The notes below the pieces were generated by a model that saw nothing but the letters and a program-made list of their open reading frames with translations, did not search any database and was not told where the DNA came from. Below are positions 8,115 through 38,313 of a DNA stretch of 64,000 nucleotides, piece by piece (position 1 is the first letter of the stretch; each line of letters opens with the position of its first letter). The position numbers and the translations under genes are program-made. The DNA comes from Actinomycetes bacterium (GTDB taxonomy: Bacteria > Actinomycetota > Acidimicrobiia > Acidimicrobiales > RAAP-2). Where the stretch lies: contig JAJZDI010000009.1 of assembly GCA_021806045.1 (NCBI GenBank), positions 62,001 to 126,000 of the forward strand, written 5' to 3'.

Positions 8115-8909
8115 ATGGTCGTCCGGATGGACGACGGGGAGCTCCTCTCGGTGCTGAACGAGGCCGCCGACGCCGTGACCCGCACGCTCGCCTCGTTGGA
8201 CGACTGGGGACTGGCCGGGACCCGGGCGGGCCAGTACCACTCGGACCTGGCCGCCGACGCCGCCGCCGTGGCCGTGCTGCGCGACGCCGGGTTGGCCGTG
8301 CTGTCGGAGGAGTCGGGGATCTCCGGTGAGGACGTACCCGGGATGGGGGGTCGCGACGGGCTGACCGTCGTGCTCGACCCGGTGGACGGCTCCACCAACG
8401 CGTCGCGGGGCATCCCCTGGTTCGCCACCAGCCTGTGCGCGGTCGACGGTGACGGCGCCCGTGCCGCGGTTGTGCTCAACCAGGCGTCGGGCGTCCGCTA
8501 CCAGGCCGTCAGGGGCGGTGGGGCCACCCGAGACGGCACGAACCTGGTCACCTCGGGCACCACCCGCCTGGGCGAGGCGATCATCGCCTTCTCCGGCTAT
8601 CCGGCCCGCTACCTCGGGTGGTCGCAGTACCGGGGGCTGGGGGCGGCCGCCCTCGACCTGTGCGCGGTGGCCGACGGGACCCTCGACGGCTATGCGGTGG
8701 TCGGCGGGTCGGCGCTCGGGGCATGGGACTACCTGGGGGGGATGCTGGTGTGCACCGAGGCCGGCGGCACGGTGGGCGATGCGTCGGGACGGGAGCTGGT
8801 CGTGCTCAGCCATGGCGAGCGTCGGACCCCGGTGGCGGGCGCCACCGCCGCGCTGCACCACGCGCTGGTGGAGGCGGTGCGGGATAGCGTGGGCGGTCCG
8901 GGCGCTTAG
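8115..8909 (+). CDS. inositol monophosphatase family protein
   Basis: A Mg2+-dependent, Li+-sensitive-type sugar phosphatase. All signature motifs are present: the metal ligand glutamates in LSEESG, then LDPVDGSTNASRGIPW (the DPxDGTxN motif), and the C-terminal SALGAWDYLGGMLVCTEAGG (the WDxAAG...EAGG motif). Length is 264 residues. ATG 8115 or the internal ATG 8127 could both be the start; neither has a clear ribosome site. Possible substrates are inositol-1-phosphate (mycothiol and phosphoinositide synthesis), histidinol phosphate or PAP. The gene's last codons and its TAG stop (8907-8909) lie inside the tRNA-Val acceptor and D arm. Confidence 0.9.
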   Translation: MVVRMDDGELLSVLNEAADAVTRTLASLDDWGLAGTRAGQYHSDLAADAAAVAVLRDAGLAVLSEESGISGEDVPGMGGRDGLTVVLDPVDGSTNASRGIPWFATSLCAVDGDGARAAVVLNQASGVRYQAVRGGGATRDGTNLVTSGTTRLGEAIIAFSGYPARYLGWSQYRGLGAAALDLCAVADGTLDGYAVVGGSALGAWDYLGGMLVCTEAGGTVGDASGRELVVLSHGERRTPVAGATAALHHALVEAVRDSVGGPGA

Positions 8910-8976
8910 CTCAGGTGGTCAGAGCAGCTGGCTTACAACCAGCAGGTCGGGGGTTCGAGTCCCTCAGCGCCCACCA
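8900..8976 (+). tRNA. tRNA-Val (anticodon TAC), CCA encoded
   Basis: A complete cloverleaf. Acceptor GGGCGCT (8900-8906) pairs with AGCGCCC (8966-8972), and a normal D arm follows. The anticodon stem GCTGG/CCAGC closes the loop CTTACAA with anticodon TAC. The T loop is TTCGAGT. Discriminator A8973 is followed by an encoded CCA (8974-8976). The gene overlaps the end of the upstream phosphatase gene by 10 nt on the same strand. Its 3' end is repeated at 11652-11683, so it looks like the integration site of the island that follows. Confidence 0.96.
8944..8975 (+). repeat. att-like repeat, tRNA copy
   Basis: The variable-loop-to-3'-end segment of tRNA-Val. It matches 11652-11683 at 29 of 32 positions. 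The last 21 bases (8955-8975 and 11663-11683) are identical. Direct repetition of a tRNA 3' end 2,708 bp apart is the usual footprint of tyrosine-integrase insertion into a tRNA gene; no integrase gene is present between the copies. Confidence 0.75.
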
Positions 8977-9023: not shown

Positions 9024-9707
9024 TCAGCGGGCATCGGAAGGCGTTCCGGTCCGTTGACCGGCGGTCAGGGCTTCGCGGACGGTCTTGCTCCGGAACTGCA
9101 CCCTGTCGGCCGCGGCCTGGATCGTGCCGGGGATGTAAGCGACGAGCTGGTTGCGGCGGGGCGCGGCGACGTGAGCGGCGCGGCGTTCGATGCCGCGGAC
9201 GATCTGGTTGACGACGGTCTCGATGGGGATGAGCTTCCACATGCCGGTGTGGTTGTTCCAGATGCGCATCGAGGCGGGCTGGGCCATCACGCCGTCCATC
9301 AGCGAGGTCTTGAAGAACGTGGGGTGAGCGCTGCCGACGGTGACTCCGGTGTGGGCGACCTCGAGTCCCATGGTGTCGCACACGGCCCAGACCCCGGCCT
9401 TGCTGGCCGGGTAGCCGCCTTGAAGGGGGGCGTGGACGAAGGCGGCCAGCGAGGAGACGGCGAGCGGGTGGCCCAGTTCCTTGGTGGCGTGCGGCAGTGC
9501 TGCGGTGAAGGTGCGCCAGACGCCGTTGATGTTGATGTCGACGGCGCGTTCCCACTGGTCGGGGGTCAGGTCGGTCATCGGGACGACGGCCTCACCGATG
9601 CCGGCGTTGGCGATGACGACGTCGAGGCGTCCGAAGTGGGCTGTCGCGGCGGCGGCTGCGCGCACGCTGTCGAGGCCGCGGACGGCGACGCCACGTTCGA
9701 CTGGTTC
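9024..9707 (-). pseudogene. N-terminally truncated short-chain dehydrogenase
   Basis: The frame clearly encodes the middle and end of a classical SDR. FGRLDVVIANAGIG is the strand-4 NAG motif, and VSSLAA holds the catalytic Ser. YPASK is the catalytic Tyr-x3-Lys, and a substrate-loop region follows. The N-terminal Rossmann strand with the cofactor-binding TGxxxGxG motif is missing. Upstream of about 9707 the frame continues open but reads as unrelated low-complexity sequence. About 60 N-terminal residues have been lost, so the product could not bind NAD(P). The break lies next to a transposase-like scrap. It is the first element inside the tRNA-bounded island. Confidence 0.65.
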
Positions 9708-9724
9708 GACTATGAGGAGCTGGG

Positions 9725-9850
9725 ATGATCGGAACGTCGCGCAACGAGGCCCGGGTGGTCGGGATGCGGCGGGAGCATCCGGGGTGGGGGTCGCGCACGA
9801 TCCGCACGTGGGCGCGCCGCCGCAGAGGCCTCGCCCGTCGGTCGACGGGG
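9725..9850 (+). pseudogene. possible IS481-type transposase scrap
   Basis: A short stretch reads EARVVGMRREHPGWGSRTIR in one frame. This resembles the helix-turn-helix segment of IS481-family transposases, which usually have MRREHPxWGxRxIR followed by a left-over helix. Similarity fades after about 35 residues, and neither the DDE domain nor terminal repeats are present. It abuts the point where the SDR gene is broken. The match is recalled from family knowledge and covers little sequence, so it is tentative. Confidence 0.35.
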
Positions 9851-9880
9851 GTGTCACCGCTCAGGTCCGCCGGGCGTCCT

Positions 9881-9950
9881 GTCAGAACCGTACCGATTCC
9901 AGTACGGTAGGGACTTGTCACAACCGTACTGCTACAAGTACGGTTCTGAC
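9881..9950 (+). promoter_or_regulatory. abiE promoter with twin palindromic operators
   Basis: Two palindromes of identical architecture, ACCGTAC-N8-GTACGGT, lie at 9887-9908 and 9923-9944, exactly 36 bp apart. The outermost arms extend to a perfect 13-bp inverted repeat (9881-9893 with 9938-9950). A promoter fits inside: TTGTCA at 9915-9920, an 18-bp spacer, then TACGGT at 9939-9944, which would start transcription at or near GTG 9951. The second operator therefore covers the -10 element. AbiEi antitoxins are known to bind paired inverted repeats and repress their own operon; the autoregulation here is inferred from that. Confidence 0.75.
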
Positions 9951-10502
9951 GTGGCACTGGCTGACACCTACCGACGGCGGTTGCGGGAGATCGCGCTCGA
10001 CCAGTACGGCTATGTCACGACCCGCGACGCGGAAGGGGTCGGAGTGCCGGCGGTCGAGCTCCGCAAGCTCGCCCAGCGCGGCGGTCTCGATCACATCGCT
10101 TACGGCCTCTACCGGTTTGACGATATCCCCCGTACCGGGCGCGACCAGTACATGGAAGCGGTGCTGCGGGTCGGGCCCGGCGCCTACCTGACCCACGATG
10201 CGGCGCTCGCGCTGCACGACCTGGGTTTGGTGAACCCGCGCCGTATCCGGGTCGGGACCCCGAAGCGGGCCCGGCCGTATCTGCCCGATGACGTCGAGGT
10301 CGTCCAGCGACGCCTCGACAAGGCCGAGCTGACCGTCTTCGAGGGAATCCCGACCACCACGGTTCGACGGGCGTTGCTCGACTGCCGTGACCTCGTGATA
10401 CGAGAACGACTGCTCGACGCCGCTCGGGAAGCAGCTCGTCGGGGCCTGCTGCGCCGCGACCAGGCAGACGGCGTGATCAGCGAGATCGGCGGCGCAGCAT
10501 GA
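9951..10502 (+). CDS. abiEi: AbiEi-family antitoxin / transcriptional repressor
   Basis: Antitoxin of a type IV toxin-antitoxin (abortive infection) pair, 183 residues from GTG 9951. The N-terminal winged-helix half includes YGYVTTRDAEGVGVPAVELRKLAQRG, then HIAYGLYRFDDIP and the YLTHDAALALHDLGL segment typical of the family. The C-terminal half has PTTTVRRALLDCRD. A TTG at 9915 is in frame but lies in the operator, so GTG 9951 fits better, probably on a leaderless message. The ATG of the toxin overlaps its stop (10499-10502). It is predicted to counter the toxin without direct binding and to repress through the twin palindromes. Codon use is visibly less GC-biased than in neighbours. Confidence 0.88.
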   Translation: MALADTYRRRLREIALDQYGYVTTRDAEGVGVPAVELRKLAQRGGLDHIAYGLYRFDDIPRTGRDQYMEAVLRVGPGAYLTHDAALALHDLGLVNPRRIRVGTPKRARPYLPDDVEVVQRRLDKAELTVFEGIPTTTVRRALLDCRDLVIRERLLDAAREAARRGLLRRDQADGVISEIGGAA

Positions 10503-11353
10503 GCCCCAAGCGCGAGGACCCGCCGTCGAACCTGCGGTCCCTCGAAGCTCGCATCTCCAACATCGCGAGGGAGCGAGGTCGCCCACTGCGGCGTGTGCAA
10601 CGCGTGATCGCGAACACGGTGGTCGGCCAGATGCTGCCGCCCAGCGTCGTGAAGGGAGGCACCGCGATGAAGCTGCGCGTCGGCGAGGCCGCCAGCCGTT
10701 TCAGTGCAGACCTCGACGCCGCCCGCTCCGCCGAGCTGACCATTGACGACTACCTCGACGCGCTCGCCGCCAGGCTCGCCGAAGGGTGGGGAGGCTTCAC
10801 CGGTGAGCTCGAAGAGCTGGACCCACCCCAACCCGAAGGGGTGCCCGACGACTACATCATGCGACCCTTCGTCATCCGTCTCGCCTACCAGGGCCGGCAC
10901 TGGCTGAGCGTCCCGTTCGAGCTCGGCCACGACGAGATCGGCAGCACCCAACGACACGAGCTTCGCGTCGCTGATGACATCGTCGAGCTGTTCGACATCA
11001 TCGGACTCGACACCCCGGACCCGATCCCTGTGCTGGCGCTCGATCACCAGATCGCCCAGAAGCTCCACGCCTGCACGGCGATCAACGCCAAGACCGGTGG
11101 CAACGAACGTGCCCACGACCTTGTCGACCTCCAGATCCTCGAACAGGAGGAGCACATCGACTACGCCGCGTTGGCCGCCACCGCGCAACGGTTGTTCGCG
11201 GCCAGGCGCGGCCAGCCCTGGCCGCCGACGGTCATCGCGTACGAACGATGGGACACCATCTACGCCGAGGCCGCCGACGGGCTCGACGTCATCGAACACG
11301 TCGACGACGCCGTCGCCTGGGCCAACGACTTCATCGCCCGCACCGCACGTTGA
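10499..11353 (+). CDS. abiEii: AbiEii/AbiGii-type nucleotidyltransferase toxin
   Basis: 284-residue DUF1814-family nucleotidyltransferase toxin. Motif I is KGGTAMKLR (52-60), followed by SRFSADLDA (66-74) with two Asp for metal binding. Later family motifs are IAQKLHACTA and NERAHDLVDLQIL (the K-x-x-D-h-x-D-L type). AbiEii toxins transfer nucleotides and arrest growth, and related MenT toxins modify tRNA acceptor ends, which can stop phage spread. All key residues are present, so the toxin is probably functional. Its start overlaps the antitoxin stop by four bases, ensuring coupled translation. The gene sits in a tRNA-bounded island with lower GC than the flanks, consistent with acquisition. 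Confidence 0.9.
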   Translation: MSPKREDPPSNLRSLEARISNIARERGRPLRRVQRVIANTVVGQMLPPSVVKGGTAMKLRVGEAASRFSADLDAARSAELTIDDYLDALAARLAEGWGGFTGELEELDPPQPEGVPDDYIMRPFVIRLAYQGRHWLSVPFELGHDEIGSTQRHELRVADDIVELFDIIGLDTPDPIPVLALDHQIAQKLHACTAINAKTGGNERAHDLVDLQILEQEEHIDYAALAATAQRLFAARRGQPWPPTVIAYERWDTIYAEAADGLDVIEHVDDAVAWANDFIARTAR

Positions 11354-11634
11354 TGCGCGGGCGATCAGGCCCGGCCCGTTCGCCTCTCGCCGCTATCGCC
11401 GGGGGAGCGGGGGATCACCTGTCCGACACGCAGCGTGACCGGCGTTCGCGCCAATCTTGATCGCCGATGGCGCGACGATGGCGCGAACATGGCGCGAACA
11501 TCTTCCGCCAGCTTCCGCAGAAGGGTCACCGAGGGCTCTCGAGCCGAGCCGGCGACATGCAGCCTGACCTGTAAAATCATGCCCTTTGGCGGCCCTCGGC
11601 GACTCAATCGAGGAAGCGGTGACCGGGCGTGGAT
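11354..11634 (+). other. gene-poor end of the abiE island
   Basis: About 280 bp between the toxin gene and the tRNA-like remnant. No frame looks coding; those open on either strand have no family resemblance or ribosome site. The stretch contains the three 11-bp repeats at 11467-11499 and a comparatively AT-rich patch (TGTAAAATCATG near 11570). It may be what is left of a larger element, but nothing here proves it. Confidence 0.4.
11467..11499 (+). repeat. three tandem 11-bp repeats
   Basis: ATGGCGCGA recurs at 11467, 11478 and 11489, a strict 11-bp period. The full units are ATGGCGCGACG followed by ATGGCGCGAAC twice. One helical turn per copy is the geometry of iteron or arm-type protein sites. 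They lie inside the island end, 125 bp before the tRNA-like remnant. Confidence 0.7.
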
Positions 11635-11683
11635 CTTCCTTCACACGGCAGAGGTCAGAGGCTCGAGTCCCTCAGCGCCCACC
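11625..11683 (+). pseudogene. degenerate tRNA-Val(CAC)-like remnant with att-like repeat
   Basis: From 11635 the sequence reads as the 3' half of a valine tRNA. A 5-bp anticodon stem with one mismatch (CTTCC/GGCAG) closes the loop TTCACAC with anticodon CAC. AGGTC follows, then a T arm with two mismatches (loop CTCGAGT), the 3' acceptor strand AGCGCCC, A and CC. GGGCGT at 11625-11630 could pair with the acceptor, but the D arm is absent, so this cannot be a working tRNA. Bases 11652-11683 repeat the 3' end of tRNA-Val(TAC). It ends four bases before the MarR stop codon. Confidence 0.65.
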
Positions 11684-11686
11684 CCA

Positions 11687-38092: not shown

Positions 38093-38122
38093 GATCCCAC
38101 TATCTCGTACCTCGGGGAGGGC

Positions 38123-38144
38123 AAAACACAAGATATTGTGTTTT
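38123..38144. promoter_or_regulatory. NrdR box upstream of nrdJ
   Basis: A perfect 22-bp palindrome, AAAACACAA-GATA-TTGTGTTTT, whose core ACACAAGATATTGTGT closely matches the NrdR-box consensus (acaCwAtATaTwGtgt). It lies about 25 bp downstream of the predicted start of transcription, which would allow roadblock repression by ATP/dATP-bound NrdR. NrdR usually binds a pair of boxes; a second full match is not seen. Confidence 0.8.
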
Positions 38145-38313
38145 GGTACGGAATCTCCTGTTCGGCGGACCGTGTCCGGCGGGCACGGCGCCAGGCACCG
38201 GCGGAGAGACTCGGGGGGAGAGGGAGCGCAGCAACGGCGGCGCCGGGGCACCCGGAAGGGTGGCCGACACCGACAGTCACGACACGAGCCACCACACGAA
38301 AGAGGTGCATCCC

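Follow-up and report, generated by a model that had tools for sequence, protein, structure and literature searches.

Twin palindromes at the start codon of an actinobacterial abiE operon: putative AbiEi operators over a predicted leaderless promoter

Described AbiEi operators and the abiE locus

The AbiEi antitoxin of S. agalactiae binds TGTTGCTTTTA-N27-TAAAAGCAACA, two inverted repeats that are the half-sites of one palindrome, and transcription of abiE in this organism starts 26 bp upstream of the ATG (PMC3985639). This binding was first reported, in 2014, to be non-cooperative (PMC3985639) and is later given as positively cooperative (as stated in PMC7319586). In M. tuberculosis, Rv2827c recognizes two pairs of repeats, which are bound with negative cooperativity (PMC7319586). 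Leaderless toxin-antitoxin genes are already known: of the 37 M. tuberculosis toxin-antitoxin pairs that have a primary start, 32 are leaderless and show a TANNNT -10 but no -35 motif (PMC3898074).

The locus described here lies in a 64-kb window, the whole stretch of DNA that was analysed, and by its domains, fold and gene order it is a predicted type IV abiE toxin-antitoxin operon (Table 1). AbiEi scored 30.5 bits against PF13338 (AbiEi_4, N-terminal winged-helix domain; cut-off 25) and AbiEii scored 61.5 bits against PF08843 (cut-off 22.5), while neither protein was matched in NCBIfam. The abiEii gene overlaps abiEi by 4 bp, in an operon-like arrangement. A model of AbiEi, based on an alignment of 19 homologues, had a mean pLDDT of 91.6, and the solved structures closest to it were 6y8q, AbiEi of S. 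agalactiae, with Z 12.3 across 171 residues, and 1zel, M. tuberculosis Rv2827c, with Z 7.7. The Z score of 1zel is close to those of many unrelated winged-helix proteins; however, the alignments of those are confined to about residues 1-61, and that of 1zel extends over 175. One of the abiEi homologues (L017:3001-3533) has an interrupted frame, with a stop in the translation and an open frame of 40 amino acids.

Like S. agalactiae abiE (PMC3985639; 6y8q), the locus combines a bicistronic AbiEi-AbiEii operon, an inverted-repeat pair over the core promoter, which here is a predicted one, and a matching antitoxin fold. Autorepression by AbiEi was shown in S. agalactiae, and by analogy the same regulation is predicted here. 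However, the S. agalactiae operator is a 49-bp palindrome with 11-bp arms separated by N27 (23-bp repeats 3 bp apart), present in one copy and with an RBS, whereas the units described here are 34 bp long, with 13-bp arms and an 8-bp centre, are present in two copies and are apparently leaderless. Because the arm and centre geometry is unlike that of S. agalactiae, we regard the present arrangement as a variant of this kind of operator and not as the same operator type. The locus also resembles M. tuberculosis Rv2827c-Rv2826c (PMC7319586; 1zel) in having two inverted-repeat pairs upstream of an AbiEi-family antitoxin, and negative autoregulation by Rv2827c has been shown in E. coli (PMC7319586). 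There, in contrast, the repeats are 23 bp long with 13-bp and 4-bp gaps, the distance between the pairs, calculated from the published repeat and gap lengths, is ~63 bp compared to 36 bp here, and the antitoxin, with its reported negative cooperativity, is larger than AbiEi of the window. The candidate TANNNT -10 and the predicted start at the start codon are like those of the leaderless M. tuberculosis toxin-antitoxin transcripts (PMC3898074); that work is a genome-wide mapping and, in the text consulted here, describes no operator palindrome fused to an abiE start codon. A search of mostly open-access literature turned up no account in which an AbiEi palindrome is joined to the start codon of a leaderless gene.

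Table 1 Features of the abiE operon and its putative control region (positions in the window).
Feature	Position	Strand	Evidence
abiEi, AbiE antitoxin and probable autorepressor, GTG start, 183 aa	9951..10502	+	PF13338; PADLOC AbiEi 1.7e-63; model matches 6y8q
abiEii, predicted AbiE toxin (nucleotidyltransferase family, DUF1814)	10499..11353	+	PF08843; PADLOC AbiEii 4.7e-99
Distal operator (putative), 34-bp palindrome GTCAGAACCGTAC-CGATTCCA-GTACGGTAGGGAC	9881..9914	.	10/13 arm pairs; matrix from other clades 33.6 bits, rank 2 in 64-kb window
Proximal operator (putative), 34-bp palindrome GTCACAACCGTAC-TGCTACAA-GTACGGTTCTGAC	9917..9950	.	12/13 arm pairs; 34.9 bits, rank 1 in window
Candidate -35, TTGTCA	9915..9920	+	5/6 to TTGACA by inspection; weakly conserved in relatives; low confidence
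Candidate -10, TACGGT, TANNNT type, predicted transcription start 9951	9939..9944	+	right arm of proximal operator

A palindromic unit linked to abiEi

Read from the window sequence, ACCGTAC-N8-GTACGGT occurs exactly at 9887-9908 and 9923-9944, and the outer arms GTCAGAACCGTAC (9881-9893) and GTACGGTTCTGAC (9938-9950) form a perfect 13-bp inverted repeat. Both the pair of equally spaced palindromes offset by 36 bp and the perfect outer repeat agree with what a preliminary description of this DNA had claimed. Its 7-N8-7 palindromes are present as well, but each extends further: the homologues carry a longer palindrome, and thus the unit in the window is 34 bp with 13-bp arms, i.e. 9881-9914 and 9917-9950. 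For example, the unit of Aeromicrobium flavum (L018) is GTCACAACTATACCGTTTTCGGTATAGTTGTGAC, 34 bp placed directly before the ATG. The two units of the window nearly abut, with 2 bp between them, and together they make up the interval 9881-9950 that had been delimited before. The proximal one is flush with the start codon, and the same placement is seen in L005, L013-L016, L018 and others.

In the 3.1-Mb genome of the organism itself the exact pattern has two sites, both at the abiE operon, and the genomes of 100 relatives hold one further site (G037 C2:2741-2762), which lies 98 bp upstream of an abiEi match (C2:2839). Because many relatives with a diverged AbiEi lack the exact pattern, this search indicates an association with abiEi and not presence at every abiE. 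Inverted repeats of the 7-N8-7 form are common if any sequence is allowed, with 22 in the window; a pair of the same sequence and spacing no more than 100 bp apart was found once in the window and in none of 20 local shuffles.

The preliminary description had proposed an alignment of the regions upstream of homologous abiEi genes, and in this comparison a palindrome stands upstream in all 23 genome_contigs homologues (37-93% identity), each with at least 9 of the 13 arm pairs. These homologues come from a genome collection separate from the 100 relatives' genomes. A symmetric matrix made from 25 sites of other clades gave the two units the scores listed in Table 1, with the next position in the window at -1.1 bits, and a matrix of Propionibacteriales-type sites only gave 29.9 and 29.8 bits, with the next at 1.6. 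Both matrices ranked 9917 first and 9881 second, and the next position trailed them by ~28 bits or more. The sites in the matrices were chosen by palindrome strength and position, which makes the matrices independent of the window without making them blind. The third-ranked match, a weak one at 38120-38153 (1.6 bits with the Propionibacteriales matrix), surrounds an AAAACAC-N8-GTGTTTT inverted repeat.

The TAC...GTA core is invariant in all 32 sites of the matrix comparison. The outer arms vary between clades yet remain complementary: 206 of 264 variable-position pairs were complementary, compared to a mean of 130.6 and a maximum of 159 in shuffles, which ignore relatedness. The palindrome accompanies abiEi in many actinobacterial families, and more distant AbiEi genes with other palindromes (L062, L075 and L080) likewise have a palindrome at the start codon. 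In IMG/VR viral contigs and phage records we found no relatives at the sensitivity used. Given the co-occurrence with abiEi, the position upstream of the gene in 23 of 23 homologues and the scores of the independent matrix, the palindromes are very probably AbiEi operators.

The DNA common to the window and L005 spans 9878-11686 and begins three bases before the first palindrome, so that the operators travel with both genes. The 3' end (8944-8975) of a tRNA-Val gene (8900-8976) recurs with 91% identity over 32 bases at 11652-11683, where the abiE block ends on the right, so that abiE may be part of an island of ~2.7 kb that was inserted at tRNA-Val. The L005 block also ends in a similar tRNA-like stretch. 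A short-chain dehydrogenase ORF on the minus strand (9024-9857) matches its Pfam profile only from position 66 on, and its N-terminus seems to have been lost or replaced beside the abiE block. A short ORF at 9725-9910 looks by eye like the start of an IS481-type transposase; a Pfam search with it gave no match.

Promoter, start codon and leader

The preliminary description had placed a likely leaderless TTGTCA-N18-TACGGT promoter at this site, and these elements are indeed present, with six bases between TACGGT and GTG 9951. The candidate -35 is made up of flanking sequence and the outer left arm of the proximal palindrome, and the candidate -10 is part of its inner right arm. A sigma-70 consensus scan scored no promoter at the site, because TACGGT matches TATAAT at only three of six positions; it does fit the actinobacterial TANNNT. 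Of 33 promoter-proximal sites, 30 have this motif in their right arm, several of them as TATAGT. However, TANNNT coincides with the operator core and is mirrored in the left arm too in 29 of the 33 sites, so its conservation alone is no proof of a promoter. The better -10 match is in the right arm in 11 cases and in the left in 3 (p = 0.057, not significant and not corrected for relatedness), and as promoter evidence this strand asymmetry is suggestive only.

In most relatives that have the site, the palindrome either abuts the start codon or stops one base short of it, and its right arm contains a TANNNT -10. It ends 0-1 base before the ATG or GTG in L005, L011, L013-L016, L018-L020, L022-L027, L059, L061, L072 and L074, and in the same way before annotated starts on plasmids L082 and L083, whose hosts are Collinsella and M. 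branderi. The distance from TANNNT to the start codon is six bases in the window and six or seven in many of the relatives, and the sequence has no Shine-Dalgarno-like stretch directly before GTG 9951. Furthermore, L005 (93% identical) has an ATG at the position of the window's GTG. This comparison supports GTG 9951 as the start codon of abiEi, in agreement with the earlier suggestion that the architecture points to this codon. An alternative start at TTG 9915 (195 amino acids) was rejected, as it overlaps both operators and the homologue alignment begins at 9951. Transcription itself appears to start at GTG 9951, which would give a leaderless mRNA.

A leader of 13-23 bases separates the palindrome from the start codon in L006-L010, L012, L017, L031 and L069, several of which have a GGAGG-like stretch. 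On a tree of 32 antitoxins, 12 of the sequences have a leader, including L006-L008, which are 76-78% identical, and changes between leader and leaderless number at least three by well-supported branches and five on the best tree; in this tree L017 and L061 are short, L060 and L070 are long-branched, and L030, L060 and L070 received their leader labels by eye. The layout of the proposed promoter is as described and a leaderless start would fit it, whereas its -35 is weakly conserved and a leader is present in these 12 of 32 sequences.

The second copy and the alternative explanations

The 36-bp spacing is common only to the window and L005. Other abiEi upstream regions with two palindromes have them 55 bp (L006), 52 bp (L008, where the proximal one is weak) or 63 bp (L031) apart, and in other AbiEi groups there are pairs at ~48-56 bp (L039, L063, L064, L065, L068, L075 and L080), several of them weak by palindrome score. 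A shared helical phase of the twins was considered and rejected: with 10.5 bp to the turn, spacings of 36, 52, 55 and 63 bp correspond to 3.43, 4.95, 5.24 and 6.00 turns and have no common phase. That neither spacing nor phase is conserved argues against one fixed geometry of cooperation. The architecture had been said to parallel known cooperative AbiEi autoregulation, a parallel that is not supported in this form: the published cooperativity is between half-sites of one palindrome, and the double operator is closer to that of Rv2827c, where cooperativity is negative. Cooperativity of half-sites within one palindrome is now told apart from interaction between two palindromes, which the earlier account had merged.

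The analysis itself shows the sequences, their exclusive link to abiEi, the conservation of their placement and symmetry and, from the homologues, the start codon; that AbiEi binds here, where transcription begins, that the promoter is repressed and what the distal site may contribute are inferred. We consider it likely, with good confidence, that the region controls a type IV abiE operon through AbiEi-bound palindromes lying over the core promoter, with transcription starting without a leader at the GTG and autorepression of the operon. The N-terminal winged helix of AbiEi would bind the half-sites of the 34-bp palindrome, which would cover the core promoter with its left end at the -35 side, the -10 in its right arm and its last base at -1. 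RNA polymerase would start at the GTG start codon to give a leaderless abiEi-abiEii mRNA, and once there is enough AbiEi, the same DNA would be covered and the polymerase blocked. The near-abutting second copy 36 bp upstream would add binding capacity and should strengthen or tune repression. Against this explanation stand the poor fit of TACGGT to the sigma-70 consensus, the leaders in 12 of 32 site-bearing sequences and a geometry unlike that of the studied AbiEi operator.

The palindromes could instead be AbiEi operators of a gene that is not leaderless, with a start further upstream and the GTG read without a Shine-Dalgarno sequence or after an unrecognised leader. The relatives with 13-23-base leaders, several of them GGAGG-like, and the S. 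agalactiae start 26 bp upstream of the ATG (PMC3985639) would fit such an arrangement, but the sequence directly before GTG 9951 is free of Shine-Dalgarno-like stretches and the six or seven bases between TANNNT and the start codon recur in many relatives, so that we regard it as unlikely. It is very improbable that the palindromes bind a different host repressor and stand at abiE by coincidence, since the exact pattern occurs only at abiEi in the 100 relatives' genomes, the palindrome goes with abiEi through many actinobacterial families, and AbiEi has a winged helix and studied homologues that autorepress. The arms are long enough to pair as RNA hairpins, as in an attenuator or terminator. 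However, the repeats would be untranscribed if the start is 9951, a scan gave no terminator-like site, and G-T mismatches in the arms (13) are no commoner than A-C mismatches (15), which points to DNA symmetry rather than RNA pairing; we give hairpins hardly any weight.

Beyond the window, we think it reasonably probable that a compact module is common to abiE operons of Actinomycetota: a single 34-bp palindrome would be both core promoter and operator and would end at a leaderless start codon. The module would persist through gains and losses of a short leader and through the appearance of an auxiliary upstream copy 36 to 63 bp away. This provides a testable operator model for actinobacterial AbiEi, with half-sites around a TAC/GTA core in a 34-bp palindrome at a fixed position relative to the start codon, and the model can be used to correct start codons and to locate additional abiE operons. 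Leader, operator copy number and spacing differ between closely related operons, so the effects of these differences on repression can be compared directly.
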